Below, piece after piece: positions 2,295 to 64,000 of a stretch of 64,000 nucleotides of DNA. The notes under the pieces were generated by a model, which was given only the letters and a program-made list of their open reading frames with translations, was not told the DNA's origin and ran no database searches. Each line of letters opens with the position of its first letter. Within the stretch, counting starts at the first letter, position 1. The position numbers were made by a program, and so were the translations under genes. The DNA lies in assembly GCF_000002425.4 (NCBI RefSeq), contig NC_037275.1, forward strand, positions 11,357,310 to 11,421,309, given 5' to 3'. This stretch comes from Physcomitrium patens. Lineage: Eukaryota > Streptophyta > Bryopsida > Funariales > Funariaceae.

Positions 2295-2623
2295 AATGAT
2301 AACAATATGAAATATTAGAAATTGATTGTATGAGAAGAATGAAAGATTATGAGTAATAATTATGAAGGGGAGGATTATCAAAGAATTAATCGATTAGCAA
2401 AAGAAAGACAGGAGTGATTACGTATAAGAAATCTCCTACGGAAACGAAAAAAAAGAATTATATGTCCAAATAAAACCAAAGGAAGAAAAATTCAAATTTA
2501 GATAGCAAGGAGACTAGTGATAACACCAATGGTTGCGGGAGTGCTAGAAGTATCAATTGCAGTACAAATGGGAGCAGTAGGAGACCGAACTACAAGTGTG
2601 GCACTATTATCTACTTTTAGTGG

Positions 2624-4230: not shown

Positions 4231-4361
4231 AGACCTAATTATGGCGACATCCAATCCAGGTCTTGAAATGGGCCCCTTACTCAGTATAAGACCTAAATCG
4301 GTTGTGCACCCTAATGAGGTACCGATTACGGAGGCTTTGATTCCATCTCAAGCTATTCCGT

Positions 4362-5627
4362 TGTCATATTACGTGCTTTCCTGCTCGAGAATGCATCGGA
4401 CGTCTGGCTGTAGAAGGTAGTATAGAGATTCGCCAATATTCAAGCAGTTTATCGATTTTTGACTATTGGAATATAAACAACTACAAGAATACACCGTAAA
4501 TCTATACGGATGCCCTTTGACTGCTTGTCGAAGTCCTTTTTGCCCTAGCCGATAGGTCTCTAGACGTTATAGAGAACCCCGAACAATCCAAACTGCTAAT
4601 CTTCGATACCGCTTTATACTCACGATCTTGTATCCACTGACTGTCTTGTTAGATTAATCCAATAAATTTCATTCACTCCGCATACTCAACCCTATAGGCA
4701 CCCTTTTAACTCTTCATCACAAACATAACTCGATTTCACAAAACAGTCAAGAGTAATCAAACCCACTTCATTAAAAATCCCGATTCACCATTACAACACT
4801 GACTTCAGCAACAATTGCCTCAGTCTTCCCAAAACCCTATGAAGAAAAAAAAATCCAATTCTCTGTCTTTTTTCTCCGCCCGAAGCATGAAGCTAGCTCT
4901 CTGATTCTTCAAAAAACTCCCCCAAAAACTTCTTCTCTCTCCTCTCATTTCTTAACCTTAATTTTGAATTTCTTCAATCCTCCGTCTTGGATCCGGAATT
5001 GGCTCTTGCCGTCAGAGCTTGATCTGAAATTGACTCTTGCTGTCAAAGCTTTCTCCTCCGTTTTTACCTTTAAGAGCTCCTTTTACCGAAAGGACGTTTC
5101 CGAAATGACACAAAAGACGGAACAGCCTGAAACGGAATTGGAGCCACGTAATCGGGACCACATTGAGTCGCCCGACCAATTCAGGTCTCATATTGGCTAA
5201 GAGTCCAATAGTAAGACCCGGATGTTCCCGAAATTGGATCAAATTGGTCTTTCACGTCAGATTGGCTGAGGCCCGTAGTAAGACTTGGATTTTCCCGTAA
5301 TTAGACTGCATTGGATTGCCCGAATAATTCAGGTCTCATATTGGGTAAGAGGACCCGGATTAGATTCTTGAAATTGGATCCAATTGGCTCTTCGAACTAG
5401 GCTCACCCGTCGTGTGAATTGGTCCTTTCCCTTCCTGCTGACTCCCGTTATTGGAATCAAACGGAGCATTTCAGTATGCCCCGGCTGATTGTAATGGGGT
5501 GACTGAACCTGGCCACTCAACATTTGCACTGGAGTTGGTCGTTGCTCCCAATATTCGAGGTAACTGAACATTAATAAAAGTCCCCTTTCTTTATATTTTC
5601 ACGATATACTCGTGTTACAACACGACA
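4362..5627 (+). mobile_element. Family II LTR-like insertion carrying an inverted gag-linker piece
   Basis: Both ends match the family II LTR: the start tgtcatattacgtg is as at 495, and the end is cgtgttacaacacgaca. It is flanked by a 4-bp ccgt duplication (4358-4361 and 5628-5631). The first ~700 bp align with the LTR, for example the caacaattgcctcagtcttcc stretch. About 5140-5560 instead resembles the family I gag-protease linker in antisense, as at 46000-46160 and 21640-21860. It looks like a solo LTR of a variant family that had acquired a piece of a family I element, or into which one was inserted. It sits inside the family I element at 1503-9358. Confidence 0.6.
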
Positions 5628-5889
5628 CCGTTCTCTACACAGTTTTGAGAAACATCCTTTTCATTAAAAGATCCTCTCCGAGGCGTGAATTCCAAGGAAC
5701 CAATATCAACTCAATTGAGAGAACAATCTTACCCGTTGAAAGAACCGATTTTACAAGCTCCATCAAATTTAATTTGAATAGCTTTACCAATATAGAGAAT
5801 ACCAATATACCTATGTTGGTGTCTAGGACTGGGAAGAAGAAATGGACATTGAAAATTACTACTAATACAGAATCATATGATATTCTAAA

Positions 5890-8110
5890 AGATTTGGGCA
5901 CCATACAGTCCACGATTTCTATGAAGCAACTATTGGCGGTAGCACCTGAGTGCCAAATTATCTTGAATTCTTCATTAATTCATCGTAGGTCTCGAAATAA
6001 AGAAATCCGAGAAGTAAGTTTGAATCCCGATCTGGGTGCATCAATGATTGATGTCTCAATTGATGGAGTATTACTATCAAGAGTGCAAGTAGACGGAGGA
6101 TCTAGTGTAAATCTTATGAATAACACTACAATGGAGGAGCTGGGTTTGCATCACCTATTCCCTACTACAGTAGTTTTGAGAATGGCTGACTCTAGTCGAG
6201 TTAAACCTATGGATATTTTATGAAGTATTGATATAGTAATTCTGGAGATTACCTACAAAATTGATTATATTCTTTTTCGATTGCAAAGTTCTATATTGTC
6301 ATACCCAATTTTATTGAGGCAAGCTCGGTTGTATCAAACTAAAGCTCGAAATGATTGGGGCCGTGGTACATTGACAATTGAGAAATATAATGATAAAATT
6401 ATACTTTAAATGTACCTTGTCCAATATCATGGAGAAATTCAATTGGCCAGTTTAGAATTCATGTCAGATTGTGAAGATGAGTCTATAGAAGAAGAAATTG
6501 GTACACTTGACCCAATTTATACTGATACAAGGTAAGTTGTTGAGTACACTAGAATGAAATACCAGTGTAGGGGATCGAGAGAGTTCTTAGTTCCTCTAGA
6601 TGTTATTGACAATTTTGATCATATGATTGCATATTGGATGAATAGACAGGATGTTAATCACATTAGTACTATGGAACTGGAGTTAGAAAGTTCTAATTTG
6701 TCAGATTTTATGAAAGATTTTGAAATAGAGCAGAATATTTTTTTAGAGACTCTTGAAATTCCACAATGTCAATCAATTAATTTAGGTACAAGGAAGGCTC
6801 CCCAAACCATTTAGATTTATGACAGTATAAAAAGCAAGGAGAAAGAAATTTGGGTGGATTACTTTTTAATACATAAAGCTACTTTTATATAGTCGTATGC
6901 AGATTTGAAAGGAATTCCAGCTAAAGTTTGTGAGCATCGAATTATATTAGAGGAGAATGCTACACCAATACGCCAAAGATGACATCAACTTAATCTAAAA
7001 TACTCACTTATAGTAAAAGAAGAACTAAATAAACTCTTGGAGGTTGGATTTATCTATCCATTTCTTTTCAGTGAATGGATTTCACCAATTATTATGGTAC
7101 TGAAAAAGAATGAAAAAGTTTGCATCTGTTAAGATTTCTACAAATAAAATGTGACTACCAAGAAGGATTATTTTCTTTTACCATTTATGGATAGTATATT
7201 GGATGTTGTCACTGGATATGAATAATATTCATTTCTTGATGGATTCTCTTGTTACAATAAAGTAAAAATTGCAAAAGAAGACCAGTTAAAAACTACTTTT
7301 ATTACGGATTGGGGGACCTTTTGAAAAATGGAGAATTGATTTTGTGGGACGAATTGCACCAGTCTCGAGAAATGGACAAAAATGATGTATACTGGTAGCA
7401 ATAGATTAGATAACAAAATAGGCTGAAGCTGTAGCTATGAAAACCGATAGTACAAGTACAATAGCAACCTTTTTGTATGAAAATATTATTATATGGTTCA
7501 GTTGTCCACAAGAATTGGTTAGTGATCCAGGAACTCATTTTATAAATAGTACAATCGAAGCACTTATGGTTAAATACAAGATAAAACATCATAAGACTAC
7601 ATTGTATCACCTTAGAGCCAATGGATAAACGGAAAAGACTAATAGAATTTTATGTAAAATCTTAACAAAAATAATTTCAGGAGTGGGAACAAATTGGGAT
7701 ACTAAATTGTTTGCAGCTTTATGGGCATACCACATTACGTATAAAATTACTACCAATACTATGCCTTTTTAATTGGTTTATGGCCAGAAAGTAATATTAC
7801 CTATTGAATTGGAAGTCGAAAGTTTACGAATTGCTATAGATAATAGATTGGAAGATCAGGATTCATTACGGCACCATTTGGAAGAATTAAAAAAATTGGA
7901 TGAAACTAAAATCAATGTATTAATGATAATGGAAACTACACAAAAACGAAGGAAGACTTATTATAATAGTAAGCTTAGACCAAAGGCTTTTATGCTAAAT
8001 GATTTGGTTCTTTATTATGATAGTCAATTTAAAAATTTTCCAGAAAAATTTCAAGTTCGATGACATAGGCCATATCGAGTTATTGACGGATTTCCAAATG
8101 GTTCAATGTA
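5890..8110 (+). pseudogene. pol region of the family I element at 1503-9358
   Basis: The aspartic protease active-site motif DGGSSVNLM lies near 6096-6120. The reverse transcriptase includes the DGFSCYN motif near 7240. The integrase core remains include LVSDPGTHF near 7515, followed by the integrase C-terminal region to about 8060. The same domains in the same order occur in the copy at 17310-26367. There is no chromodomain after the integrase, which fits the Tat/Athila side of plant Ty3/gypsy elements. Heavily broken. Confidence 0.8.
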
Positions 8111-8571
8111 ATTGGAAGATTTTATGGGTACTAAATTTACGACACAGATCAATGGCAATCGGCTTAAAATTTACTATACATAAATTCGGGACAGGTTTTT
8201 TGTTACAAAAGGATGGAGAGTTGATCCAATTGATTGGACCATAGTTAGAAGTAGGAGGAGGGCTCTTGACAAGCATCGTATTTTTTTTTTGTGGTTAAGG
8301 AGAAGTGGATGGCGGAAAAGGAGAAGATGGCGAACATGGTGTCTGAGAAAGCAAGAATGGAGATCGATTGGAAGGAACGACAAGAGCGGCTGCAGGTTGA
8401 AGTTACGATGTTGTAGACTAAACTAGCTGCATTAACAAAGGAGGCCAATAATTTAGTGCGGACCAATATGCCAATTTCAGCGACAACACCTTCAGAGATA
8501 TACGCTGCTACGTCTTTATAAGTTGAGGCTAAATAATATTTGTGACGACGCTCTACAATTAAGAGGGGCTA

Positions 8572-9358
8572 TGTAGAATAGGTAAATAATAGGTAGAATA
8601 GGTAAATTTTGTGGTAAGTTATTGGTTGGTTATTGACAACCTTGAAAATTAGACTTATGGTTAGGCAGTTTAGTTGGTAACAGTAGGTTGTTAGTGGAAT
8701 AAATGGTTAAGAATTCAAAGGGTCATAACCTTTGGAATCCATTGGTTGACGGATCATCTTTTTGGTAGGATAAAGAGGTTGAGGAAAGAGAGATCGGAGC
8801 TAGATTGTGAGAGTCGTAAGCCGAGGTAAGCTTGGTACTACCTCTTTGTTTTCTCTGCTTTTATTATTTTCTTATGAAGAATTGTGATTGAAAGAAGTAT
8901 TGTTGAAACTGTGATTAGAATATTGTAGAATATGACTTTGGACTGACCATTTTGGAGAAAATCTTTGACCTTGAGAATTGAGATTATCAAATTATATTAT
9001 ATTAAGTAAAGATATTTAATTTTGTATAATGAATTGAGAAAATGAATATAATAAGAAAGCTGGAGATCAGTAATTAAATATATATAAACCATAAAGAGAG
9101 TAAGTGGAAGATGAACTGATAAGAATATAAAAGTATTGTTGAATTGATAGTCTTAGAATGGATTATATGTTGAATTAAGATGGAAGTAATAAGCCTTGGT
9201 GTTTTGTAGTGCGATAATTGATTTTACATAGCTAAAGTATAGTCAATTGTTACACTAACAGATCCAATTCATATAACTAGTCTTTTCCCGTGTTCGAATC
9301 TACCTCTATTAGTTGAATTACTTTGGTATATCGAAGCTTGAACACAACGAGAATAACA
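8572..9358 (+). repeat. Family I 3' LTR
   Basis: It follows the polypurine tract aagagggg and ends gaataaca before the cctat duplication. Near its start it carries a small local duplication of gtagaataggtaaat. Confidence 0.92.
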
Positions 9359-14057: not shown

Positions 14058-14618
14058 TGTCAAGGACAAGAACTCGATAAAAAAGAAATACAGACAAAAG
14101 AGCATTCACTCAAAGAAAGATAACAAAATATAAATAAACAAGTATGTATATTGAAAAAAAAATTGAAATGGCTATTGCCAAAAGACAAGAAAACTAGAGA
14201 TCCTTGAAACTAGACTAAAAGCAAGAAAGGAGTTGACAAGAGTGAAGAGGGCTTCACTCTTGCCTCTATATATATTATTTAACTAGGGGCTATGTGGTGA
14301 CGTTCTATAAGACCTCCAATATGTGTTGACTTTGAAGGACACATGCCTTGACTTACAAGGTAAGTTTTTTTATGTGTGGGCCACATAGTTAGCTTGATCT
14401 TCAAGCTAACAACATGTGTGGTACATGGCCAACTTGTTGACCACATTTCTAATCCAAAAAGTCAATTAAAGACACCTATGAAGTCAAAGCAACGTCTATG
14501 AAGCTTCTAAAAAGCTTTCATATTAAATACTATAGAATTAACTTATTTTTACCTACTTTTACTTACTTCCACCTATTTATATATATAATTACTAGCTTAC
14601 ATGAGTATGTCTGTGACA
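14058..14618 (-). mobile_element. Solo LTR of family III inside the family II element
   Basis: The sequence runs from tgtcaaggac to gtgaca and is the reverse complement of the LTRs at 34440 and 40143. It is flanked by gcatc on the left and acatc on the right, an apparent 5-bp duplication with one change. On the minus strand it contains the TATA box, and next to it the 13-bp hairpin (14235-14264). Recombination between two LTRs normally leaves such a single copy. Confidence 0.88.
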
Positions 14619-34325: not shown

Positions 34326-34772
34326 AGGAGGGCATGGATAAGATAATTATATTATTGACGCATAGAAATAGGTAATTAGAGCCGTTTTTGAAAAGTTTCT
34401 AGAAGTTTTAAGAATTGAGGCTAGACTAGTATCATGGACATACACATGTAAGTCAATAATTACATATGTAAATATATAGAAGTAAATAAAAGTAGATAAA
34501 AATAAGTTAATTCTAAAGTATTTGGTCTCAAAGCTTCCTAGAAGCTTCATAGATACTACTTTGACTTTATAGGTATCTTTAATTGACTTTTTGGATTAGA
34601 AACATAGTCAACAAGTTGGCCATGTGCCACACATATTGTTAGCTTGAAGACTAAGCTAATTATGTGGCCTACATGTAGAAAAACTTACCTTGTAAGTCAA
34701 GGCATGTGTCCTACAAAGTCAATACATATTAGAGGTCCTATAGAACATTGCCACATAGCCCTTAGTTAGATA

Positions 34773-34781
34773 ATATATATA
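34773..34781 (+). promoter_or_regulatory. LTR TATA box of family III
   Basis: The run atatatata lies 31 bases upstream of 34805. This spacing fits plant TATA-to-start distances, and the element is present in every family III and IV LTR in the window. Confidence 0.75.
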
Positions 34782-34783
34782 GA

Positions 34784-34813
34784 GACAAGAGTGAAGCCCT
34801 CTTCACTCTTGTC
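34784..34813 (+). other. 13-bp perfect hairpin at the predicted U3/R junction
   Basis: Arms gacaagagtgaag (34784-34796) and cttcactcttgtc (34801-34813) flank a ccct loop. It recurs in the LTRs at 40487-40516, 14235-14264 (minus), 52496-52525, 53311-53340 (minus), 59445-59474 (minus) and, with compensatory changes, 63623-63652. Confidence 0.88.
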
Positions 34814-34989
34814 AACTCCTTTCTTACTTCCAGTCTAGTTTCAAGGTTTTTTAATTTTCTTGGCTTTTAGCAATAGCCATTCCAGTTTCTTTCTTAATAT
34901 ATATATCAAGTTATTTCTATTTTTTCATCTTTCTATGATAGAAGTCTGACTTGTTTATTTATCTTTATCATATTCTTGTCTTTGACAGA

Positions 34990-35000
34990 TTGACAAGAGT
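34990..35000 (+). other. Candidate self-priming primer site of family III
   Basis: TTGACAAGAGT lies two bases after the LTR end. It is the exact reverse complement of ACTCTTGTCAA at 34805-34815, the predicted first 11 bases of the transcript. Complementarity stops exactly at 11 bases on both sides. Tf1/sushi-group elements use this arrangement. Confidence 0.75.
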
Positions 35001-35008
35001 ACACTAAC

Positions 35009-35020
35009 AATATCAGAGCT
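35009..35020 (+). other. Displaced tRNA-iMet-like motif (aatatcagagct)
   Basis: It matches the TATCAGAGC core of the usual plant chromovirus primer site TGGTATCAGAGC. However, it lacks the TGG that pairs with the tRNA CCA end, and it lies 23 bases past the LTR. The same motif follows the family IV LTR at 63806. Confidence 0.6.
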
Positions 35021-35199
35021 TTGTCTAATCTTGATTAAGAGTGAATTACTTCTTTTTCTTGACAAGACATAAGCATATAAGAAGTTGCGGATTACCCTCT
35101 TCTAAACTGAAATTGTCCTTAGTATTTTATTTGTTCTCAAGTCCTCTCTTCTATTTGCCTTGAGCGATATTAGACATCTTCTCTTTTTTAAGTATTATC

Positions 35200-36190
35200 A
35201 TGACAGAACTTGCTGAAATAAAGAGTTCATTGGTACAAATGCAAGAGCAATTCAGGCAGTTAATGCTTACGATGCATCAACTCAATTTACCACCACAAGA
35301 AGCAACAAGATTGGCAAGAAGTGAAGATATAGAAATAATTGGAGCTGCTTCAACATCTGCACCAAATTATGTCCCTCATCCTATGGTGGAACGCATTTCC
35401 AATGTTAGAGAACCAAGAATTACCCTATCTGAGAAGTTTGATGGCACCAGATCAAAGTTTAGAGGATTTATCAATCAAGTACAACTTGTGATTGAACTTC
35501 AACCCCAAAGCTATCTAACTCCAGGATCGTAAGTTAGATTCATTGATATGCTTCTTTCAGGTTTAGCATTATCATGGTTTTCATCTTTTCTTGAACGAAA
35601 AGATCCAATATTGGATAATCTAGAGACTTTTTTGGCAGAGTTTCGATCCATATATAGAGAACATAATGCAATTCATATTACAACCAATAAGATCCATATT
35701 TTACGACAAGGCAATTGATCAGTAATGATGTATGCTTCACAATTTTGACAACTTGCAACTGATATCAAGTGGGATAATGCTGCATGTATTAGCTAATTTC
35801 TCTACGAATTACAATATGAGGTAAAAAAATTAATGCTCAACTTACCTGATTCTCAAACATTGAGTCAAGCAATTGACTTTGCTGTGAAGTATAACAATCA
35901 CCTTTTTGAATTTTGATTTGAGAATCGTATAAGTAGACCTCAACGCAACTATAATTCAATAGCAATACCAACATCTCTTCAACACATATATTCGGAAGTA
36001 GAGGATATGTAAATTGATGCAATACATTCCAAATCTCTTACTAAGCAAAAAAAGACTCATCGTCGTCAAGAAGGATTGTGCTTATGTTGTGGAGAATCTA
36101 AGCACACTGCTCAACATTGCCCAAAGAAGCGACACAACTATAAAATGAGGAGTACGGTGATCAAAAAAGATAGTATGTCAAAAAACAAAT
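35200..36190 (+). pseudogene. gag region of the family III element
   Basis: It begins at an ATG after the leader (MTELAEIKSSLVQMQEQF). It continues with a capsid-like segment ending near 35960 and a zinc knuckle of the form CX2CX4HX4C (CLCCGESKHTAQHC) near 36080-36125. It would coat the element RNA. Broken. Confidence 0.8.
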
Positions 36191-36219
36191 TTGTCCAACT
36201 ACAATAGGAACCGTGCGGC

Positions 36220-39200
36220 TAGAACCTTATACAATACCTAGTGAAGGTCCTATCCTCTCCTCAGAATCCTATCCATGTTTTACAATAAATATTATTCTAG
36301 GACCTAAATATCTCAAAGCCTCTGCCTTGCTAGATTCATGAGCCTCAGCATGTTTCTTAGATGAAAAATTTACTAAAAGACATAGCATATTTTTAGTAAA
36401 GAAAACTAAACCTATTCATGTAGAAGTCATAGATGGTTGTCTGTTATCTTTAGGAGATGTTATTCATGAAATCCTTCCTAAAGAAATAGCAACTAATGTT
36501 CATAGTAGCTTTATAATATTTAATATCATTAGATCTCCTTCTAATTCAATCATTTTAGATTTATCATGGCTAGAAAAATATAACCCTAAAATAGATTGGA
36601 CTTCTCATAGTCTTGAATTTTTCGAAAGTATCACTAAGAGTGTAATTAATCAAGTAGAAAGTCATAAGTCTAGTATAATTAAACTTATATTTGTAGGTGC
36701 AAGTACTTTCTTGCATGTTGCAAAAGAAGGATCACCTTGTGTCATTTATGCCACACCTGTTTCTGCTGGTGGAAAGACTTCAAGTGGCATTCCAAGCCAA
36801 TATCAAGATTTTTAAGATGTATTTGAGAAAAAAAAATGCACTTATTCTTCCACAACATTGTTCCTATGACTGCTCAATTGACCTTCAAGAAGGAGTACAA
36901 CTGCCATTTGGACCAATCTACAATTTATCTCAAAATGAATTGGCTGAACTCAAGGAGTATATTGAAGAGAATTTAGCTAAGAACTTCATATGCTATTCCA
37001 AATCTCTAGTATGAGCTTCAATTTTATTTGTGAAAAAAAAAGATGGATCATTGTGGATATGTGTTGATTATTGAAGATTCAACAAAATCACTATCAAAAA
37101 TAGGTACCCACTACCTTTGATATCTGGACTTCTTGATCAGTTGAATCAAGTTAAGATCTATACAAAAATAGATCTATGGAGAGCATACAATTTGGTACGC
37201 ATCAAAGAAGGAGATGAATGAAAGACTATGTTTCGAATAAGGTATGGATATTTTGAATACAACATCATGCCTTTTGGACTTACAAATGCACCAGTAGCAT
37301 TCTAACATCTAAGGAATGATGTCTTTTGAAAGTTTTTAGATGATTTTATTATCTGTTACCTAGACAACATCTCAATTTATTCTAAGAACTCAGAAGAACA
37401 TGAACTTCATGTTCGCTAAGTATTACAAAAACTAAGAGATGCAAGATTCTATGCCAAGATAAAAAAGTGTATTTCATACTACTCAAGTCGACTTCTTAGG
37501 ATACATCATTTCAAATGATGGACTTATGATAGATCCTATGAAAGCTCAAGCTATTATGGATTGGAAGATCTCAAAAACGATAAGAGATGTCCAATGCTTT
37601 TTGAGATTTGCCAACTACTATCGGATCTTTATCAAAGACTTCTCTCAAGTTGTAGCTCCACTTACATGTTTGACTTACAAAGACAAACTTCAATAGATTC
37701 AAAAAGCAGAAGTAGCATTTGAAGCTTTAAAGACAGCCTTTGTTCTTACATCAATTTTGTATCGCGTTGATTTTTCTAAGCCATTTTTTATGGAAACAGA
37801 CGCATCAAATTTTGCTTTGGGTATTGTATTGTTACAAATGAGAATAGATGATAAACTTCACCCAATAACTTTTTATTCCAGAAAATTTTCAGCAGTCGAG
37901 ATCAACTACGAGATCTATGACAAAGAACTTCTTATAATCATGGATTCATTTCAAGAATGGTGTCATTATCTAGAAGGTACTTTTAGCCCAATCACAGTGT
38001 ATACAGATTACAAGAACCTTGAATATTTTATGTCAACACATGTTTTGAATCGTCGCCAAGCCCGTTGGAGTATGTCTTTGTCAAGATTCGAATTCAAGAT
38101 CACTTATCGACTAGAAAAATAACAAGGTTTTTTAGATATACTCTCTAGACAATCTTATCTTACAGCAAAGAAAAGAGATGCTGATTTTGATCAACAATAG
38201 ATAATTCTCTTAAAGCCAAAGCATCTTCATCTTCGAATAATGAAATCAACACTAACTGTTGATTCAACTTTCATTAAGCAAGTTCAGCCAAGTATGTCTT
38301 CTAATCCTCTTATTCGTGATATTAAGGAAAATCCTTCAAAGTCTCATGATACTTCCAAGTTTGAATTCAAGAAGAATCTACTATATTTTGAGGGACGCCT
38401 AAATATTCTAGAAGGTGAAGCTCGATTACGTGTTCTTCAAGCTCGTCATGACTTTCCAACAGCAGGATATTTTGGATACAATAAAACTTTGGAACTAATA
38501 TCCAAGGACTTTTGGTGGCTCCAAATGTGGAAAGCAGTTAAAGATTTTGTATAATCTTGTGATATTTGCTTGAGATCAAAAACTCCTCATCATCGACCTT
38601 ACGGACTTTTTCAACCATTACCCATTCCAGAACAACCATGGTCTTCTATTTCTATGGATTTCATCATGGATCTTTTAATCTCAGGTTCTTATGACTCTAT
38701 ATTTGTGATAGTAGATCATTTTATTAAGATGGCACATTTTGTACTATGTAAAAAATCTATTACAGGTAAAGAAACAACTTAGCTCTTTCTTAACAATATC
38801 TATTGCTATTATGGATTATCCAAGGATATTATATCAGATAGGAGAACTCAATTTGTATCAAGATTTTGGCGGACTCTTTTCAAAGTCCAACTTAAAGTAA
38901 ATATAAAACTATCTTTGGTATTCCATTCTCAAACTAATGGACAAACGGAGCATGTTAATCAAGTTTTGGAGCAGTATTTAAGATGTACCATTAACTACCA
39001 ACAAGTTGATTGGATAATTTTTTTGCCATTGGCAGAGTTTGTTTACAATAATATGGTACATTCTTCTATAAAATAAACACCTTTCTTTACTAATTATGGT
39101 TATCATCCACGACTTGATATTTTTGACTTTTTAAAAGTTGATAATCCTATTGCAAAAGATTTGGCAATTCATTTGTTAGAGCTACATGCAATGATGAAGG

Positions 39201-39703
39201 CGTAGTTAAAACAAGCTCAAGAACAATAAAAGGTCAATGCGGATGTCTATCAAAATGAACAACCACCATTCCACATGGGTGATAAAGTATGATTACTTTG
39301 TCACAACATCAAGACCACTTGTCCTTATGACAAGTTGGACTATCAAAAGCTGAGACTATTTTCTATTTCTATACAAATCAATCTAGTTGCATATCATTTA
39401 CATCTATCGGAGTCAATGAAAATCCATCCATTATTCCACATATCTCTTCTTGAACCATTCAAGATAATGGACATACCAAGAAGAAGACAAGCTCTATCTC
39501 CTCCTATAGAAGTAGACAATAATGAAGAATTTGAAGTGGAAGAAGTCTTAGATTCAAAGCGACGTCAAAATAAATTAAAATATCTTGTCCATTCGTGCGG
39601 ATATGATATTAGTGAATGCATATGGGAGCTAGTAAAGAATCTTGCAAATGCAACAAAGACGGTGGAGGCTTTTCATCGACAACAACTATCAAAATCAAGA
39701 TGA
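36220..39703 (+). pseudogene. pol region with chromodomain of the family III element
   Basis: In order: protease around 36310-36370; reverse transcriptase about 36890-37700 (FGPIYNLSQNELAELKEYIE; later CYLDNI at the catalytic box); RNase H about 37757-38122 (METDASNFALGIVLLQ); integrase zinc-binding region about 38400-38580 and core about 38590-39100 ([13 protein letters not shown]); integrase C-terminal part about 39335-39480; chromodomain about 39525-39690 (EFEVEEVLDSKRRQNKLKYLV). The chromodomain places it among the chromoviruses, in which it is thought to steer integration to particular chromatin. Many breaks. Confidence 0.9.
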
Positions 39704-40142
39704 AAACCTTCTTTATAAAAGAAACAAGATCTAGACAAGATATCATTCTACTTTCAATCCTTGTTTGTAGCTTCTTTTTAGTTGTGATGCTCAAGAGATG
39801 GAGAATCAACAACCAACGGATTCGACTTAAGAGCCTTTGTTTGCTGACCTGCCAAATGAGATATTACGATTGTCTCAACCTTTAAGATGATGCAATCGAG
39901 ATGAAGATCTTTAAGAAAGACATGTTCTTCCTCAAATAGATGGTGAAATACAATACGTACAAGTCCCTTACAAGGTCTTTTTGCCTCGGTATGGAATACT
40001 ACCGATAGTTGAGAGGCCCTATCAATTATCTTCGAAGAGAACAAAGATCAGAGTATGTGGCGAATATAATTCATCATATCGTAGATTTTCTCAACATATG
40101 ATTACCGCTCCTCATGGAACTCGTCCCTAGAAGGGGAGGTAA
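39704..40142 (+). other. Post-chromodomain segment and polypurine tract of family III
   Basis: About 430 bp lie between the chromodomain and the LTR with no recognisable domain. The distal ~140 bp are conserved in the family III remnants at 53682-53830 and 61196-61280 (both minus strand), with cgccacatactctgatcttt as the anchor on the minus strand. The polypurine tract agaaggggagg lies next to the LTR at 40143. Confidence 0.7.
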
Positions 40143-40692
40143 TGTCACGGATATACACATGTAAGCCAATAATTACATGTATAAGTAAGTAAAAGTAGGT
40201 AAAAATAAATTAATTCCATAGTATTTGGTCTGAAAGCTTTCTAGAAGCTTCATAGACACTCCTTTGACTTTATAGGTGTCTTTAATTGACTTTTTGGATT
40301 AAAAACGTGGTCAAAAAGTTGGCCATATGCCACACATGTTGTTAGCTTGAAGACCAAGCTAACTATGTGGCCCACACATAGAAAAACTTGCCTTGTAAGT
40401 CAAGGCATGTATCTTATAAAGTCAACACATATTAGAGGTCCTATAGAACATCGCCACGTAGCTCCTAGTTAGATAGTATATATAGAGACAAGAATGAAGC
40501 CCTCTTCACTCTTGTCAACTCCTTTCTTGCTTCCAGTCTAGTTTCAAGGGTCTCTAGTTTTCTTGGCTTTTGATAATAGCCATTCCAGTTTCTTTCTTAA
40601 TATATATATATCAAGTTATTTCTATTTTGTCATCTTTCTATGACAGAAGTCTGACTTGTTTATTTTTCTTTATCATATTCTTGTCCTCGACA
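40143..40692 (+). repeat. Family III 3' LTR
   Basis: It runs tgtcacgg to ctcgaca and is followed by the actag duplication. It contains a perfect three-unit heat-shock element TTCtaGAAgcTTC at 40239-40251 and the hairpin at 40487-40516. Confidence 0.93.
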
Positions 40693-43193
40693 ACTAGTGG
40701 TTTATGTGGGGCCTATTATAAAATATCCTAAAAGAATTAAAGGTAATTATCTAAGTAGAGCCTACTTTTAAAATCTTTTAGAAAAACGATTGTTTTGGTG
40801 AAGCCCACGATTAAGGACATTCTAAAACATTTCAGGATAGTTGGACAAAATATAAACAAGACTAACTAAGGCCATTTGGAACATTTGATTAGGTATGGCT
40901 TTAATTCCTTTTTCTTAGTAAAGTTTGATTTGTATTTTTTTTGTTTTATTCTATTTCTTTTTGATCTATTTTATCTTTCATGTTTTATTTTGTTTGGTTT
41001 TGTTCAATTTTTTTTGGTTCTTTTTATCCTACTTTGTGATGGAATTTATATTTTTATAGACAAAAAGAGTTTTAGATCTTTAAGAGAATTTAGTACCATT
41101 TTATTAGTAATAAATATTATTAAAAAAAACTTAGTTGTTTTTTTACCTAAAATAATTTTTATATATGATTAAAATGTGCCATTGTGGTGACATGATTTAC
41201 AATCACAAATATAAACTTATATGAACTTAAATATTTACAATCACAAATATAAACTTAAATAAAATCCATAGAAATAAATAACCATAGTTATTTTAGCATA
41301 AGAAATGGTTGGAGAAGTCCATAAAGTTAATAACAAGAAACTTTTGACCTTGTCTAAATATCAAATGATTGTAAAAAGTATTTTTACATTTGCAGCTACC
41401 AAAAATCTCTAGATATTAATTCCAAAATCCTATTGTATCCAAAATATCATGTTGCTTAAAAATTGTGATAAGCTTGAAGAATATATAAATGTATTTCTCT
41501 TTTTGAAACATACAAGTGATCTTCAAAATAGTGTAGATTGTTTTTAAACTCAAATTTGGATGTATCATGAGATATAAAAGAGTTATTCTTAATATCATGA
41601 ATTAGAGGATCAAATGACATACTTGATTGAATTTGCTTAAGAAAGATTGAATCAATAATCAATGTTGACTTTATTTCTTAAAGATGAAATTATTAGGACT
41701 TTAAGACAACCATTCTTTACTGGTTAAAAGTTACATGTTCTTCTTTTGGTGTAAGCTAAGAATGTTTGAGAATTACATTTGACAAACTTTGTGATTTTGT
41801 AAGTCAATATGTGATCTTGAAATCTTTATAATAATATACTCTAATAAGTTTGGCAATGATTGAGTACAAATGCTAACATGAAGTATTCAAGGTTCTTATA
41901 ATCTATATATATGATGACTTAATTGGAAGCACCTTCTAAAAAGTGATACAATTTTTGAAAAGAATCTATAATCGTAAGAAGTTTTTTATTATAGATTTTA
42001 TAGTTGATCTCTATTACTAAAAATTTTATGGATTAAAAAGCTACTCGATGGAGTTTCTTACCTATTACTACTTATGACAATACTAGACCTAAGATAAAAT
42101 CTAATACATCTATTTCTATAAAAAATACCTTAAAAAAATTGATACAAAACAAGATTAATATAGAAATAAATTATTTCTTTAAAGCATCAAAAGTTACTTT
42201 GATTTCTTTATTTCATTCAAGTTTGTCTTTGTAAGTCAAACATATAAGTCAAACTACAACTTTAAAAAAGTTCTTAATAAAGATATGATAGTAATTACCA
42301 ATGTTTAAAAAACATTACACATTGTTTATTGTTTGTAAAATCTTTCAATTCATAATAGTTTGGATCTTCTTTAGAACTATCATGAAATCTTTGTTTGAAA
42401 TGATATATGCTAAGAAGTCAACTTAAATAGCATAGAATACATACTTTTTCATCTTAGGATATAATCCTATATCTCTATGTTTTTGTACTACACATTGTTG
42501 AGTTGTCATTTGGCTATCATGTGAAAATAATGGATTTATATATTTAATACATAATATACTAGATAACATGGTGAAAGCCATATTAATGGATTTTTTTTTG
42601 GTTATAGAATGTGGATAGATTATTAGCTCAAAAAAAAAAAAAAAAAATTATATAAAAGGGCTTCTATTAGAATTTATATAACTTTATTTTCTTTTGATGT
42701 TGACTTTGAAGTTGATCTTATTAGTAGTAAGTTTTAAATATTTAGATTCACCTTAGTTAGATATTAGTAACCTTTAAAGTCTTATTTTTTTCTTTTATAT
42801 GGTGTTTAGAACATATATTGTATACATCTTGTAAAAAAAAGAATTGGAGAGAGATTTTGGTAGCAAAAAGAGAGTTTAGGGCATCCATATAGATGAATGG
42901 AGATGGATGATAAAAATCTCTATTCCTATTCGTCAAAAATCATGACCAATGGACTTCAAGGAGGCTTCTTCAAGCCATATTAGAAATTAGAATTAGTCTT
43001 TTAGGGTCATTTGAGCTTCAGAGGCTAGAATCAATAATTTTAGATTTTTGGCTATGGTTTTGGTACAAATTTTTTGTGATTTGGAATTTATATGAAAGAA
43101 ATATGGACACTCAAAGTTAAGGTGTTGATTTTGTACTTACTGTTACTCTTTTGGATAAGGCGCACACGTACAAAAAGCAATAGAGGATTGTGA

Positions 43194-49407: not shown

Positions 49408-52153
49408 AGGATCAATGACTAGGATTAGAGAGAGCACTCTCTTGGCTACAGTTTTAGCATACTATTTGATGGATTTCAAGTTTGGATGAAAGAGATATTG
49501 GAGGTTGAAGTCAGCACTTGCAAATTTAAGGGTAGTAAGTGACCTGAATTGCTAGTGGTTGTATTTTGAGCTATATCTTGTACAATTTGATAAGATTTTA
49601 GCTAAAACTTTCCAAGAATGTATATTTTTATGTAATCAAACCTATGTACATAAGTTTTGTGGCATTTGGATTTTGGATTTTTGAGATATGAGAAAAATAG
49701 TTTTTGGGTGCTTGTAGATTAGGGTTTAGAGCACTTGCTAGGATTTCTAAGTTTCCAAAAGATCCGTAATAGATTTACAATTTATTTTTTTGTGGTGAAG
49801 CTTAAGGATATAATTTATGTCATAAAAAAATTTAAAAAAAAATAAACAATTGGATCAAGTGATATAAATTTTTAAAATTTAAGATAAAAATATCTTTTGT
49901 GGGAAGAAAATGTTTTAAAGAATTTTATTATATTTTGAACTTTTATACAAATAAAGAGATTTTTGGAAGTTAAGACATCATATAGAAGCCAAAGCTAAAC
50001 TCTCTACAGCTACATACTCCATATATTCCTAGATTACAAATCATGCTATACAACATCATCAAATATAAAGTTTATGTTCTTTTGTGTTCTTAGAGTAGAT
50101 TAGATTTTTGTGTAAATAATATACAACAAAATCGTTAAGAAACTTTAAAATAATGTCATTTATAAAATTTTGAAAAGTGACTAATTCTTTCACAAATCTA
50201 GAAGGTATGATATTATATTCAAAATATCTATACTTAGTTCAAAAAGTAGTCTTTTATTCATCTGCTTCTTTAAAGTAGACTATGTAATATGCTCCTTGTA
50301 GATCTATTTTGGTATAGATCTTTATTTAATTGAATTAGTCAAAAAGTCTTAAAATTAAAGGTAGGATATATCTATTCTTAATAGTGATCTTATTAAGTCA
50401 TTGATAATTTAAATACATCTTCAAAAATCTATATTTTTTTTTACAAATAAGATAGAAGTTCTTATTGGAGATTTTGAATAGTATATGAAGTTTTTAGCCA
50501 ATTTTTTTTCAACATATTCCTTCAATGCAACCAACTCATTTTGCGAATAAGTTATAGATTGGTTCAAATGACAATTGAGCTCTTTCTTAAAGATGAATTG
50601 AATAATTATAGGATCAATACTTTGAAAGAATATTTGTACTTTTTTTAAAAAAATTGTCATAGAAATCTTCATATTAGCTACAAATATAACTCATTATCTT
50701 TCCACCATAAAAAATGGATGTAGTATATATAGCAAAAGATAATCTTCTTTTTGTTGCATGCATAAAAGCTTTTGTACCTATTAGTAAAGATTTGAATGTA
50801 CTAGACTTATGTATTTTTACTTGACTAAAAGAATTTTGAATAAAACTATAAGAAAAGTCAAAGTTACAAGAAATTCAATCTGTTTGAGGATTATATATTT
50901 TTAACTATGATAATCTTAAAATAATTGGATTGGAGAGAGATCTTATCACATTAAATATTATTACACTATTATAATCTTTAATTGCTACATCTAAAAGAAA
51001 ATTCTCATAATTAATATCTTTAGAAGACAATAAATGACTATCTATGACTTCTATATATATAAGTTTGGTTTCCTTCACTAAAATTATTTCTTCTTGTTAG
51101 ACAAAGTCTTTATTAATAAAATAAGTTGAAGCTCTTGAATCTAGTAAAATAAAGATTTTATAATTTTTAGGTCTTAAATATATATCTATTATTAAATAAG
51201 ATAAGAGATCTAAAGAAAGAATATAACCTTTTAATAGATTTGTATGTGATTCGAGCCATATAATTTCCATTGTAGCTAGAGAAACTTTTTTTTTGATACA
51301 TTGTCTTTTTTGGCAACCATGCTTTTCATTTTGTAATTGCATTGCTTCTTTGGACAATGTTAAGCAATGTACTTATATTCTCTATAATATAAGCACAAAT
51401 CTTCTTGATGATATCAAATCTTTTTCTATTCTATGAGAAATTAAAATATATCATATCAATTTGCATTGGTTTTGGCCTTAATAAATAAGTTTATGAATGC
51501 TTAGAACGTAAAGTCATTGCTTGGCTTATTCTTCTCTAGTAAATTTTTTGTTCTTAATGCCTTTTAAATAGTTGATTGTTACATGTAATTACTTAAGTAA
51601 TAAATTATTTCAATGAATCTACTTTTAAAATTATCAATGATAAATCTTTGATGTTATCCTTCAATTCATATCAAAATTGATTGATAAAAGCTTTGTCATT
51701 TCAATCCATAGTGCAAGAGAGGTTTTGGAATTTAGCAACATATATGGTAGTTTATTGTGATCTTTCTTCTAAAGATAAGAGATTGATCTCTACTATTCTT
51801 TTTTATTTTTATTTTTTTTTTAATATGGCCATAAATACTTCTATACATGAATTCAAATTATAAATGAATTATGAATCTTTTTCTATCAAAGATAAAAACA
51901 AAGTGAAAGCACTTCCATATAGAAATGAGCCTATAAGTTCAACTTGAGTAAATCTATTAGGGTATTAAAAAAGATACAATCTTAGATAGAGCTTGACTTA
52001 TTATAAAAATCCTCAAAAGTTTGATTTTGTTCCATCAAACTTCTTGAATATACTAATCCTTAACTCCGTTGTGCTTGTAGAAGCAAGACTTCTTAGATTT
52101 GGTTATACGATTGATCTACTTACTTCTCTCAATTACATAATTTCTTAGTATAA

Positions 52154-52607
52154 TATCATCAACATATATATTTGTTCCAATAATTATCTATATGATTAGG
52201 TAGAAATAGATAAATATAGATTATTTTCATGATATCTTCTAGAAAAGCTTTTTAGAAGATTTATAGATATAATTTTGATATTACACATATTTATAGTTAA
52301 TTGATAGATTAGAAACTTGATCAATAAATTAATTAAATACCATACATATTGATAGCTTGTAAAACAAGCTAACTATGTAGTACATATATAAAAAACTTAT
52401 CTCATAAGCTAAAATAAGTATCTTATAAAGACAACACGTGTTGGAAGTCTTATAAAACATCGCCACATAGTTTTTAGTTAGATAGTATATATGGAAGTAA
52501 GAATGAAGCCTTCTTCACTCTTGTCAACACTTTTTTAATCTTTCGTCTTCTTTCAAGACTTTTTAATCTTTTTGCCTTTTGTAATAGCTATTCTAATTTT
52601 ATACTAT
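52154..52607 (+). mobile_element. Family III LTR, partial, plus orientation
   Basis: It starts tatcatcaacat and aligns with 34440-34890, including the TATA box (tatatat near 52485) and a weakened hairpin (52496-52525). It stands in opposite orientation to the family III relic at its left. Confidence 0.8.
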
Positions 52608-53109
52608 GTCATTTTGGAATGTTTTTTTAGTCTTTTTGAATAATACAAGAGTATATTGACCTTTTAGTTTTTTAATATTCATGTCCTTAAAATGTAGACC
52701 TTCGACTACTTCCATAGATATAAGAATATTTTTTTTGTGGTTAATATTAATTATGCATAAAATATCCACCTTAAGAGTATTAATAAACTCATGAAGATTT
52801 GTGATAGTTACAAATCTATTCTTACCATTGCCAAGTGTAGCATCCATAATTTTTTCTATCACTTCAAAAAACTTAATAAATCCACAAATCAAATAAAAGA
52901 AGATGATCTCTAAATTTTAATGTCAAATGAAAATTTTTATAAAGAAGAGTGATCTAATTTCTTTAAGAAAAAAACCAAGATTTAAAAAATAAAGAATGTT
53001 AGTTCAAAGAAGGATAGTCTACAATCTTTGAAACACAATAATAGAAGTGGAATAATTCACTAACTTCTAAATATAAGACAAAAATAATGAATTAGTATTC
53101 TTGTTGATT

Positions 53110-53154: not shown

Positions 53155-53830
53155 AAAGAAGATATGTAAACAAGTAAAAAATGAATCAAAGAAAGATGAC
53201 AAAATAGAAATAAGAAAATAATTTTATTTCATAAGAAACTTGAATGGCTATTTTCAAAGATTAGAAAACTAAAAACTCTTGAAATTAGACTAGAAGTAAG
53301 AAAAGAATTAACTATAGTGAAGAAGGCTTTACTCTTACCTTTATATATACTATCTACATAAAAGCTACCTAGCAATGTTCTATAAGACCTCCAACACGTG
53401 TCCAATTTACAAGATATATGTCTAACTTATAAGATAAATTTCTTATATGTGCGCCACATAATTAGCTTATTTTACAACTTACTAATATATGCAACATGTG
53501 GCTGACTTGTTGGCTAAGTTTCTAACCTATCAATCATCTATATATATGTATAAAGATAAAAACGCATCTATGAAGCTTTTAAAAAGCTTCTCTATAAGAT
53601 ATTATCAAATTAATTTATTTTTATCTATTTCTATCTATTCATATTAACTAGATAATTATTAGAATAACTATATCTATGACATTATCATCTTTTTTAAAGA
53701 TAAGTTCCATGAGTAATAGTAATCACATGTTGATGAAGGCTAAGATGCAAGAAATTATATTTGCCACATATTTTGATCATTGTTTCCTTTGAAGGTAGTT
53801 GATAGGTCCTCTCAACCATTAATAATGTCA
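53152..53830 (-). mobile_element. Family III LTR, minus orientation, with adjoining element 3' end
   Basis: 53152-53681 is the reverse complement of the family III LTR and ends atctatgaca. 53682-53830 matches the polypurine tract and the conserved segment upstream of the LTR at 39990-40142 (gttccatgagtaatagtaat, then gccacatattttgatc). It is therefore the 3' LTR of a minus-strand element whose remainder is lost. The hairpin at 53311-53340 is decayed. Confidence 0.8.
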
Positions 53831-57282: not shown

Positions 57283-57485
57283 CGTCCAAGTTGAGAGTAA
57301 ACGTACTTCATTTCCATTGCAGATCTCCCATTCCAGTTCTCTGCCCGTGAGATCTTCAGAGAGTTCTTTTGCAACTGCAAACATTGTAAGTTCCAGTTAG
57401 TCAGATTTTAGCTTCTTGGTGGGGAGTGATTGTGACCTGAAGCAGATCTGGGGCTTCCTCTCGTAAGGAAATATCAAATTCGGTC

Positions 57486-57911
57486 ATGGATCGATCTGCG
57501 AAGATGGATCGCTTCAACGCTGCCCTCGTGATCTTCTTGGCGGCGGCCTTGGTTATGAGCGCAAGCACCGCAAGTGAGCTGGGCATCAATTGCCGAGGCA
57601 GCTTTATTTGCTCTGAAGGCCGCGGAAACGAAGCCAGCATCCTGGTATCGTACATCAACAATATCGACCCCAACCGCTGGTACCAAAACGGACAGCACAT
57701 CGCTTGCTATGACGGTTTTTGCGCCTTCCTGCAGAACACGGGCGGTGCGTGGGGATACAACACCAGGGGTCTCGCACACTTCATTCCGGAACATGGCTGC
57801 AGGGTTTGCGGAAGCGTGCCCTACTTTTATCCGTCGATTAACGATGTAAGTAAGGGACAACTAACTTTCAACTATGTTTCGAAACCCAAGTGCCGCAGAG
57901 GCCTGTCCTAA
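57486..57911 (+). CDS. Secreted KP4-like (killer-toxin-fold) cysteine-rich protein
   Basis: 141 residues, a single exon that looks whole. Residues 1-29 form a secretion signal: a basic start, a hydrophobic core at 12-24, and cleavage likely after STA-29. The mature protein opens with LGINCRGS (32-39) and later has HGCRVCGS (103-110), NDVSKGQLTFNYV (119-131) and a final Cys-136. These are the landmarks of the KP4 family, named after the toxin of Ustilago maydis virus P4, a small secreted α/β-sandwich protein reported to block calcium channels. Cysteines lie at 36, 42, 74, 79, 105, 108 and 136: seven, so one may be unpaired. The first ATG follows an in-frame stop at 57438; a second ATG at 57504 would still keep the signal core. 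Codons are clearly GC-richer than the surroundings. KP4-like genes are widespread in fungi and known in mosses, probably by transfer. The role here (defence or development) is inferred only. Confidence 0.88.
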   Translation: MDRSAKMDRFNAALVIFLAAALVMSASTASELGINCRGSFICSEGRGNEASILVSYINNIDPNRWYQNGQHIACYDGFCAFLQNTGGAWGYNTRGLAHFIPEHGCRVCGSVPYFYPSINDVSKGQLTFNYVSKPKCRRGLS

Positions 57912-59324
57912 GTTTGAATACCTTGCGAGTAGCATCGATATTTCTGCAGCTACTTTTGTTATACCGTAATCCACAAGATTTGCACCGTTTTGTGTAGCCT
58001 TGAAATTATTACCATTGTAGATGTGCGATGGTTACATCTAGAACAGTATTTCATGCAAGGCCACATTTCACTCTCTTAATATGAATAATGAATTCTGTTT
58101 GGACGTTCTTCCCGGATGCACTTTTCAAAAGCTAGATTCTACAATTGCTCTATAACGTCATGTGAACAAGCTGGAATTGCTACAGCCAGTGATCAATACC
58201 TGAAAACCCCGTCACCGTGCGCACCAACGTAGAAAATTTTCAGAGGGCAGAATGTGAGCAATTTGCAGCTGTGAACATGAATGTCCATTGCCTTTCCTGA
58301 AATGGGAATTACTTGTAGCTTCCTCACAAGGTCCGGGCATCCTCTCTGCCATCGCGGATGCTGCATCTACTCAAATAGACTCTGTAAATTAACCTCCACT
58401 CAGAAAAAAAAAATGACAAATTATTGAAGTTATTACGCGCAAGCATCGATTAAATGGCAGTAAGTAACACAGAATGTGTTTACTGTTTATTGTGCAATAG
58501 CACTGATCCACTTTAAAATAATGTCTTTGACACAATTGACAACTTGTGACTATTCTCTATGCACACACTATCTAGCTTGCTTTGTGAAAGAATTGTTAAT
58601 TTATATTGAACATTAATCTATATAAAGAGAGTTATGATTTACACTTCAATGTAGGAAGTCAAATTAATGTATTCATCTAACACTCCTACTTGTACATTTC
58701 AACTTTCTATGCCAAATCTCTCAACTAACATTAAAAGTTGTAATGCGTAGTTTAGCCACATTTACCTATATAAATAATATATTTTGATTATGCATCTTTA
58801 AAAACTATTATATGTGATTTTTAATTTTAAATATCAATATATAAGTACAAATATAATTCTTTTAAGCATTCATTTTATAGTACTAAGAATCAAAATTAAT
58901 ATGAATTTTAAATAATTTAAATCTTATATTTATAAATTTTGGTTTTTCTATTCTTTTCTCTTAAACGAAAAAATATATAAATATTAGATTTAGAATCATT
59001 TAAAATTTTTATGAATTAATACTTTAAGATTCTATTCCAGCACTAAATTTTAGACTAGATATATTCAATATAAGACTCTTTGAAAATTTTAAATTCAAAC
59101 AAACAGTTTAAAATATTTTAGATTAAAATGGTAGAATTTCTTTCACAATCAAGTTACAAAATATTATACAAATATATTATAATTTCAGAAATAATAATAA
59201 TAATAATAATAATAATAACTTGCCAAAGATGAAGAATTTAGGTAATAAAATGCACTAAAAATCATTTATAGTAATCTTGTTTAGGACATGAAACTTAAAG
59301 AAAGAAATCCTCAATACACTCTTA
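57912..59324. other. 3' flank of the KP4-like gene passing into AT-rich DNA
   Basis: 57912-58480 remains moderately GC-rich and presumably holds the 3' untranslated region; I see no canonical AATAAA close to the stop. From about 58500 the sequence is AT-rich without genes. An (AAT)n microsatellite of about ten units lies at 59190-59219. Confidence 0.6.
59190..59219. repeat. (AAT)n microsatellite
   Basis: About ten uninterrupted AAT units. Confidence 0.95.
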
Positions 59325-59854
59325 TGTCACTGAAAAGAACTAAAAATTTACTCAAAGATGATATAATATTTAATTAGAATGGTTATTGCCAAAAACAAGA
59401 AAACTAGAAAGTCTTGAAACAAGACTAAGGACTAAAAAGGCATTGACAAGAATGAAGAAGGCTTCACTTTTGCCTCCATATATATTCTTAACTAGGAACT
59501 ATGTGGCAATGCCTTATAGGACTTCCAAAATGTGTTGACTTTGTAAAATACATGGCTTAACTCTTAAGACAATTTTTTTATATGTATGCCACATAGTTAG
59601 CTTGTTCTACAAGCTATCAACATATTGTTAACTTGTCGATCAAATTTTTAACCTATTAATCAACTACAAATACATGTAAAGTCAAAGCAATGTCTAAAAA
59701 GCTTATAGGGTGCTTCTCTAGAAGGTATTATGAAATTAATCTATTTTTATCTACTTTTACCTACTTCTATCTAATCATATAGGTATTTACTAGAATACAT
59801 ATGTATATCCATGATATTACCTCCCCTTCTAGAGACAAGTTTCACAAAAAGCAA
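59325..59854 (-). mobile_element. Family III 3' LTR, minus orientation, with polypurine tract
   Basis: The LTR at 59325-59816 starts tgtcactgaaaagaac and ends catgata. It is followed by ttacctccccttctaga, the reverse complement of the polypurine tract seen before 40143. The hairpin at 59445-59474 is mostly preserved. The element interior continues at 61196, beyond an inserted family II LTR. Confidence 0.85.
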
Positions 59855-62933: not shown

Positions 62934-63296
62934 ATAAATTTAACTTAACCATTGTGTTTAAAACACCTTTTATGCTAAAATTGACTACTCACATGCATCA
63001 ATCTATGCTCCTTTGTAACTTTTATGAAGGTTTTTTTTACTTACAAGGATTTAAGTAATATTTGTAAAATTCTTCAAAAAATGAGAATTTCATTTCTGTA
63101 CTTGTACTTTAAAGGAAAGAGTGTTGATCTTATTTTCTTCACTCCACATGATGCATTTGATGCCTCCATTGTATTTGAAAAGCTTCTATAAATTAGAAGA
63201 ATCACTTTGCCACTTAAATTTGGTGAATTTAGAAAAAATTTTCAAACCCATCATAATTAAACCTCATTAGATTTTATTTTTTTTTTTGATACCATA
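62040..63296. other. Unidentified repeat-like region
   Basis: Two loosely similar stretches occur at about 62080-62230 and 62330-62400 (a ccgacctccttcactcaaaaattc type phrase against gccacctcctttgccttcaa). A minus-strand ORF of 67 residues (62855-62652) shows no domain I know. A run of 30 A lies at 62902-62931. It could be a decayed LTR; I cannot assign it. Confidence 0.35.
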
Positions 63297-63781
63297 TGTT
63301 AGGAACATAGTCCTTAGACCTTTCTAGAGACAAGTTTCTAGAACCTTCTAGAAAGAAGTCTCTAGAAACTTCCAAAAGATTCCTTAAATATTCTCTTAGA
63401 ATATTCTTCAAAGATTCTCTAAAGATTCTTTTAAGATTCCCTAAAGATTCCCTAAAGATTCCCTTAGAAGGCTCTAGAAGATTCTTAGAATATTCTAGTA
63501 GATTCTAGGAAGTTACTTGAGAAGCTTCCTAGCTCTTAGGTAGTTGCTCGAGAAGCTTCATAGTTCTTGGGAAGCTTCTTGATGCGCTTCTTTAGAACCA
63601 TAGGCCAGTAGTATATATAGGAGTCGAGGCTGAAGAGTTCTTCAGTCTCGACAACACATCTCTTGAAGCTCTAGCTCAATTCTCTTGGCGTTGCTCTTGT
63701 ACTCATCTGATAATCTAGTTCTTGTCATTTCTTCTTGAACTTCTTGTTTAGATTTCTTGTTTGTATTTTTGGTCCGTGACA
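63297..63781 (+). mobile_element. Family IV 5' LTR (element runs off the window)
   Basis: It starts about tgttaggaac and ends ggtccgtgaca. The TATA box (tatatata) is at 63612-63619 and a 13-bp hairpin at 63623-63652. The upstream half is crowded with heat-shock-type units: TTCtaGAAccTTCtaGAA at 63336-63353, GAAacTTC at 63365-63372, and three GAAgcTTC further on. Five 11-bp tandem units (agattccctaa type) lie at 63412-63466. The start is uncertain by a few bases. Confidence 0.82.
63612..63619 (+). promoter_or_regulatory. LTR TATA box of family IV
   Basis: tatatata lies 32 bases upstream of the predicted transcript start at 63644. The spacing is as in family III. Confidence 0.7.
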
Positions 63782-63783
63782 GT

Positions 63784-63794
63784 TTGTCGAGACT
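63784..63794 (+). other. Candidate self-priming primer site of family IV
   Basis: TTGTCGAGACT lies two bases after the LTR. It is the exact reverse complement of AGTCTCGACAA at 63644-63654. It differs from the family III pair at three positions, all compensated. Confidence 0.78.
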
Positions 63795-63805
63795 ACCTTT
63801 ATCTT

Positions 63806-64000
63806 AATATCAGAGCTGAATCCTTCTTGTTTGAGAGCGGATTACCCCTCTTCTTGAAGGTATTCTAGCGCTTTAGGGGTTGCGGATTACCTTCTTCTAA
63901 ACTGATATTTTCTCAATCACAATATCAGAGCTTAGTTCTTTGAGGCAGAGAGTGGACTACCCCTTTCTTTCGAGATACTTGAGCGTTCTAAGGGTTGCGG
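63806..64000 (+). repeat. Family IV leader with a 115-bp tandem repeat
   Basis: aatatcagagct occurs at 63806 and 63921, each followed by a gag.gg(a/c)tacccct phrase and a gcg(c/t)t...ggttgcgg phrase. The family III leader (35009-35115) has one such unit. The repeat may continue past the window end. Confidence 0.8.

Follow-up and report, generated by a model that had tools for sequence, protein, structure and literature searches.

The window analysed here, a 64,000-nucleotide stretch of Physcomitrium patens DNA, holds two LTR retrotransposons of different families (III and IV), each with an 11-base sequence inside the LTR that is complementary to a site just past the LTR. Family III is present in full (34430-40692), its reading frames broken; family IV begins near the right edge and runs beyond the window end. 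Their features, all on the forward strand, are as follows.

34425..34429 (left) and 40693-40697 (right), +: family III target duplication, ACTAG
34430..34987, +: family III 5' LTR; identity with the 3' LTR about 89%
34784..34813, +: family III start-site hairpin, a tetraloop stem of 13 bp
34805..34815, +: family III putative self-primer, ACTCTTGTCAA
34990..35000, +: family III putative primer-binding site, TTGACAAGAGT
35164..36204, +: remnants of the family III gag, interrupted by stops; one piece scores 23.8 bits against Retrotrans_gag (cut-off 24.1)
37463..39700, +: family III end of reverse transcriptase, RNase H, integrase and chromodomain, interrupted by 9 stops
40130..40142, +: family III polypurine tract
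40143..40692, +: family III 3' LTR
63297..63781, +: family IV 5' LTR, which on the left merges into the ATATG target duplication (63294-63298) and is apparently 2 bases short there
63612..63619, +: family IV TATA box, TATATATA, a TATAWA match 32 nt ahead of the 11-mer
63623..63635, +: family IV hairpin 5' arm, in U3, ahead of the presumed RNA start; all 13 pairs are standard
63636..63639, +: family IV hairpin tetraloop
63640..63652, +: family IV hairpin 3' arm, including bases 1-9 of the self-primer
63644..63654, +: family IV putative self-primer, the 11-mer AGTCTCGACAA, presumably the first 11 nt of the RNA, judging the start from the TATA distance
63784..63794, +: family IV putative primer-binding site, TTGTCGAGACT, 2 nt past the LTR

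The 5' LTR of family IV ends in TGACA at 63781, and GT separates it from the site; this end is confirmed by a 3' LTR that lies past the window (L076:264-737), is followed by ATATG and shares 95.7% identity with the 5' LTR, gaps counted. The complete element, whose extraction the initial annotation had proposed, was thus recovered with its 3' LTR, the ATATG duplication and its gag-pol domains, in the Pfam order DUF4939 (gag), RVP_2, RVT_1, RT_RNaseH, Integrase_H2C2 and rve, with SH3_Tf2-1 and a chromodomain (PF00385) both above cut-off. DUF4939 is a gag family of sushi-type elements. The leader (63795-64000 in the window, and beyond) carries an imperfect tandem unit that contains AATATCAGAGC and GTTGCGGATTACC, its copies lying some 115-155 bases apart.

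In family III, the Pfam matches above cut-off (10 pieces searched) are RT_RNaseH, Integrase_H2C2, SH3_Tf2-1 and Chromo (PF00385); the reverse transcriptase and integrase-core pieces gave no Pfam match. The stretch at 37463-39700 aligns with residues 4-668 of the 746 of Ty3 Gag-Pol and is 74% identical to its best database protein, which has both reverse transcriptase and integrase-core domains.

Further family III-like LTRs lie at 14058-14618 (-), 52150-52690 (+), 53236-53685 (-) and 59280-59819 (-), and the start-site hairpin is recognisable in each, decayed to a varying degree. Another LTR element occupies approximately 1504-9358, with LTRs 87% identical and TTGGCACCGCTGCCGGAGA (2276-2294) directly past the LTR. 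This sequence is similar to the tRNA-type primer site of Athila-like elements, and tRNA-type priming thus seems to coexist with the putative self-priming elements in the window. An intact-looking frame at 57441-57911 (+), encoding a KP4 domain (Pfam PF09044, E 4.7e-37; PDB 1kpt), stands amid the decayed elements.

The initial annotation had described the family IV arrangement as an exact 11-base complement, beginning 32 nt past the TATA box in the LTR and 2 nt past the LTR end at the site, and this description holds in every particular. The pairing stops at 11 bases, since neither flank continues it (63643 C with 63795 A; 63655 C with 63783 T), and the two sites are the only exact matches to AGTCTCGACAA and TTGTCGAGACT in the window when both strands are searched. 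The same layout, again of exactly 11 bases, was borne out in family III, where the TATA-to-primer distance is 31 nt as compared to 32 nt in family IV. The two 11-mers differ at positions 2, 6 and 8, and the site matches every change; this covariation is a single comparison, to which the relatives add more. When the 500 nt preceding the LTR end were dinucleotide-shuffled 4000 times, the complement of the site never appeared, in III and in IV alike. Three other candidates were set aside: TTGGCAAGATT at 31234, considered as a family III site, lies inside integrase coding sequence, and one-mismatch matches at 45102 and 7361 showed no LTR context when read.

A scan of bacterial genome contigs yielded nine loci (L001-L009) that encode relatives. 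The contigs belong to bacterial metagenome bins of a public species collection and look like eukaryotic retrotransposon sequence, and we take them as eukaryotic contamination. One of them, in a cyanobacterial bin (L005), has a pol 92% identical to that of family IV over the part compared. A pattern scan of viral contigs returned 38 matches and no relative. The scans covered 39 loci altogether (L001-L039), of which many overlap one another on shared contigs or include no LTR end, and the layout is present in nine distinct relatives (L002-L009 and L036), the last being the only addition from the wider scan. The primer is AAGGCGAACAA in L002, L003 and L008, AAGGTGAACAA in L007, (A)CTCTTGATCAA in L004, TTACTTGGTAA in L009 and, as in family IV, AGTCTCGACAA in L005, while L006 has a 13-base pair set; L001, in which the match starts 140 bases from the contig end, has no such pair. 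Beyond the primers of III and IV, the nine loci contribute five more, all paired at 11 of 11 bases, a perfection partly due to construction because relatives were detected through 9-10 paired bases. Neither the place after the LTR end nor the TATA distance was required by the scan, and the site begins 2 nt past the terminal CA in eight of the nine relatives (1 nt in L006), with the primer 31-32 nt from the TATA box in 8 of the 11 elements and 34 nt in one (TATAWA was not found in two).

The pol clade of the two families, which had been left to be checked, proves to be a shared one: when III and IV were placed with eleven loci and nineteen database proteins in an unrooted pol tree, III and IV (65% amino-acid identity to each other) fell in one clade, and both are chromodomain Ty3/gypsy elements. 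The fern-like L001, L002, L003, L007 and L008 form another clade with one database protein. III and IV probably belong to the Tcn1 (Tf1/sushi-related) kind of chromodomain Ty3/gypsy elements, a name resting on domain content, layout and the literature. The relatives suggest that such elements occur outside mosses and club-mosses, the contigs of L001-L004, L007 and L008 probably deriving from a fern (Azolla).

We conclude that families III and IV very probably use self-priming of the Tf1 type, given the geometry shared by two families and nine relative loci, the chromodomain pol and the existence of a precedent. Under such a mechanism the RNA would start at the 11-mer, and its first 11 nt would fold back onto the site 2 nt past the LTR; cleavage after base 11, by analogy with Tf1, would then release an 11-nt RNA primer for minus-strand DNA. 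In folds computed from the presumed start with 3' tails of 40 or 100 nt, the predicted probability of primer:site pairing was 0.50-0.96 in 9 of the 11 elements, 0.98-0.99 in L006 and 0.00-0.11 in L009; the primer is unpaired in the minimum-energy fold of III with the 40-nt tail, where the ensemble probability is 0.65. Of the additional duplexes that make up the Tf1 "pretzel", L002, L003, L004 and L007 show clear versions, and III and IV weak ones.

The initial annotation held that the pairing is evidently selected, and that related copies in which the LTR 11-mer and the site change independently would speak against this. Between families the changes are matched: across eight sets (III, IV, L002, L003, L007, L004, L009 and L006, of which L002 and L003 share one primer), the type of pair varies at 10 of 11 positions, and there are no mismatches. 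Independent changes do occur within families. Among the best 40 of 6921 first-look candidates for family III, the window copy included, 18 copies are perfectly paired, 21 are mismatched and 1 is incomplete. For family IV, 4028 first-look candidates gave 112 matches, 40 of them near full length; the best 40 scored at 99-100%, and of the 30 that were read, 27 (among them the window copy) keep all 11 pairs, and the other three have a G to A change at primer position 2 with the site unaltered. In one of these three, flanked by the target duplication ATAGC, the altered 11-mer is in both LTRs; in a second the change is in the 5' LTR only, and a search of the stretch around the third returned no 3' LTR. 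Covariation of primer and site within a family was not found in the 40 III and 30 IV copies, barring one III copy in which both sides have changed at primer position 2, alongside two mismatches. Both samples consist of the copies that match those of the window best and lean towards intact ones, and we read the unmatched changes as post-insertion decay of dead copies.

Alternatively, one could envision that the covariation between LTR and site is templated rather than selected, the primer being copied into the site in each cycle. This would follow the logic of reverse transcription, and tRNA-primed elements offer an analogy. It presupposes self-priming and is compatible with it, and we regard the arguments for and against it as evenly balanced. 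In its favour, all 11 elements compared are perfectly paired even where the primer has been wholly rewritten, although the relatives among them were found by pairing. The family IV copy with matching target duplications, which carries its altered 11-mer in both LTRs beside an unaltered site, is at odds with regular templating, but such a copy could reflect the site of one strand or parallel decay. Because the primer might in this way be copied into the site, the matching across families argues for self-priming and not, by itself, for selected double mutations; the claim of selection on the pairing thus stands only in part. What templating leaves unexplained is a second complement to the primer, the 5' arm of a hairpin, and we consider that arm the better evidence of selection.

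In family IV, this hairpin (63623-63652) reads GTCGAGGCTGAAG AGTT CTTCAGTCTCGAC, and in family III (34784-34813) GACAAGAGTGAAG CCCT CTTCACTCTTGTC; primer bases 1-9 lie in the 3' arm of a tetraloop hairpin of 12-13 bp that spans the presumed RNA start. The hairpin of L005 matches that of IV, and L002, L003, L007, L008 and L036 have 12 pairs of different sequence. Across these eight elements 95 of 96 cells are paired, the best of loops of 3-6 bases and of 12 or 13 pairs having been chosen for each and a loop of 4 having won in all eight; two-sided changes occur in 9 of the 12 pairs, the eight elements representing approximately three lineages (III; IV with L005; the fern-like set). The three changes that separate the III and IV primers are matched not only in the site but also in the 5' arm, and the hairpin pairing extends 3-4 bases ahead of the primer, whereas that of the site does not. 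The RNA fold z was -6.5 for IV and -6.1 for III (range over the hairpin elements -4.7 to -7.7), and none of 200 shuffles did as well. Scanning the forward strand of the 64-kb window for hairpins of at least 12 pairs, with a loop of 3-5, no more than one G-T pair and four or more G-C pairs, returned those of III and IV only, as compared to an average of 0.025 in 40 shuffled windows; the older III-type LTR copies fall below this threshold. The same scan of 22 loci (100 kb) found hairpins at start sites only, in L002, L003, L005, L008, L036 and the 3' LTR of IV (L076), L007 missing by one non-pair. Among copies, the hairpin is fully paired in 21 of 40 for III and 24 of 30 for IV, and one of the 40 III copies carries a compensated hairpin pair. 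We regard the hairpin as a second, separately conserved feature. It was not found in L004 (z -0.34, with 57 of 200 shuffles as good), L006 or L009, so self-priming would be independent of it. L004 pairs its primer over 12 bases (206-217 with 346-357) and has a strong second duplex.

Self-priming elements, by virtue of their LTR layout, would carry the primer sequence at both ends of the RNA, an ambiguity absent from tRNA-primed elements. Because the 5' arm of the hairpin is part of U3 and precedes the presumed start, genomic RNA would lack it at its 5' end, which would be free to prime, and the 3' copy of the 11-mer, which has the U3 arm, would be folded away by the hairpin. We therefore propose, tentatively and at somewhat less than even confidence, that the hairpin is an RNA lock that sequesters the 3' primer copy, its 5' arm mimicking the primer-binding site inside U3. 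Such a lock would confine priming and cleavage to the correct RNA end and would be under selection apart from primer copying, so that U3 arm, R primer and primer site would coevolve as a three-part set; if so, a covarying hairpin exclusive to the 3' copy would be a simple answer to the ambiguity. In folds that place arm, primer and site in one short RNA as a stand-in for the real 3' end, the primer:site probability of III and IV, 0.58-0.95 when folded from the primer, fell to 0.00 once the 5' arm was added. With the arm and a 100-nt tail it was below 0.02 in seven of the eight hairpin elements, and with a 40-nt tail below 0.05 in five; L003 still prefers the primer site in both cases, joined at 40 nt by L007 and in part by L008.

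The hairpin could instead work in DNA, as a palindromic core-promoter element rather than as RNA structure. Its position between TATA box and presumed start, reaching into the primer in all eight hairpin elements, would suit such a role. However, its sequence is rewritten between families and its pairing, loop size and register are kept, which fits a structure better than a sequence motif read by protein, and it includes G-T pairs, which suit RNA; we think this explanation less likely than not. A very improbable alternative is that a tRNA primes further downstream at AATATCAGAGC, the 11-mer pairing having some other role. We take AATATCAGAGC to resemble part of an initiator-methionine-tRNA primer site, and its only occurrences in the window, all on the forward strand (35009, 63806 and 63921), comprise one past the III site and two within the IV leader. 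However, a primer site normally adjoins the LTR, and AATATCAGAGC is absent from all nine relatives with the layout (partial contigs, L005 included), in which the 11-base pairing is present. ARAGORN found no tRNA in the window. That the repeats arose by chance is barely credible: AT-rich sequence does yield many 11-mer pairs, mostly of low complexity (216 within 60-800 nt), but the shuffles for III and IV gave none in 4000, the relatives repeat the layout, and hairpins this strong occur at start sites only.

Self-priming with a possible lock, as proposed here, has precedents in part. In the sections consulted, 12% of plant elements, among them most members of the moss and club-moss Tcn1 clade, are predicted to self-prime (Neumann 2019, PMC6317226), and Tcn1-like chromoviruses are described in mosses and in Selaginella, the primer site of the Selaginella element not having been found (Novikova 2010, PMC2864245). 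The self-priming layout, already predicted for most plant elements of the Tcn1 clade (PMC6317226), is thus known. III and IV resemble that clade in being chromodomain Ty3/gypsy elements with predicted self-priming; unlike them, the clade as described in those sections comes with no mention of a start-site hairpin or of primer covariation (PMC6317226, PMC2864245). "Hairpin priming", reported for some chromoviruses (PMC3601003), we take to be self-priming itself. In Tf1, Tf2 and Tj1, which have a chromodomain, the first 11 bases of the RNA have their complement in a primer site that follows the 5' LTR, and in the Tf1 group three duplexes are described, that of the primer and two downstream of it (PMC4600332, PMC7175516, PMC10085805; consulted in part). 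The Tf1/sushi group therefore shares with III and IV the 11-base self-primer complementarity and the chromodomain, and differs in that the parts consulted describe no duplex with sequence upstream of the RNA start. A start-site hairpin goes unmentioned in the sections of the literature searched, a set that excluded the founding Tf1 and sushi papers, and we regard the hairpin as the new part of this work. Finally, family IV resembles RLG1, which the sections consulted give as the most abundant family of P. patens, a gypsy family with a chromodomain and 5092 complete elements, transcribed in protonema (PMC7466625); the likeness, by description only, is in abundance (4028 first-look candidates for IV in a 470-Mb genome) and in the chromodomain. 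Family IV may be RLG1, and if so, the reported transcription in protonema would make its start sites and cDNA ends checkable on endogenous material (PMC7466625).
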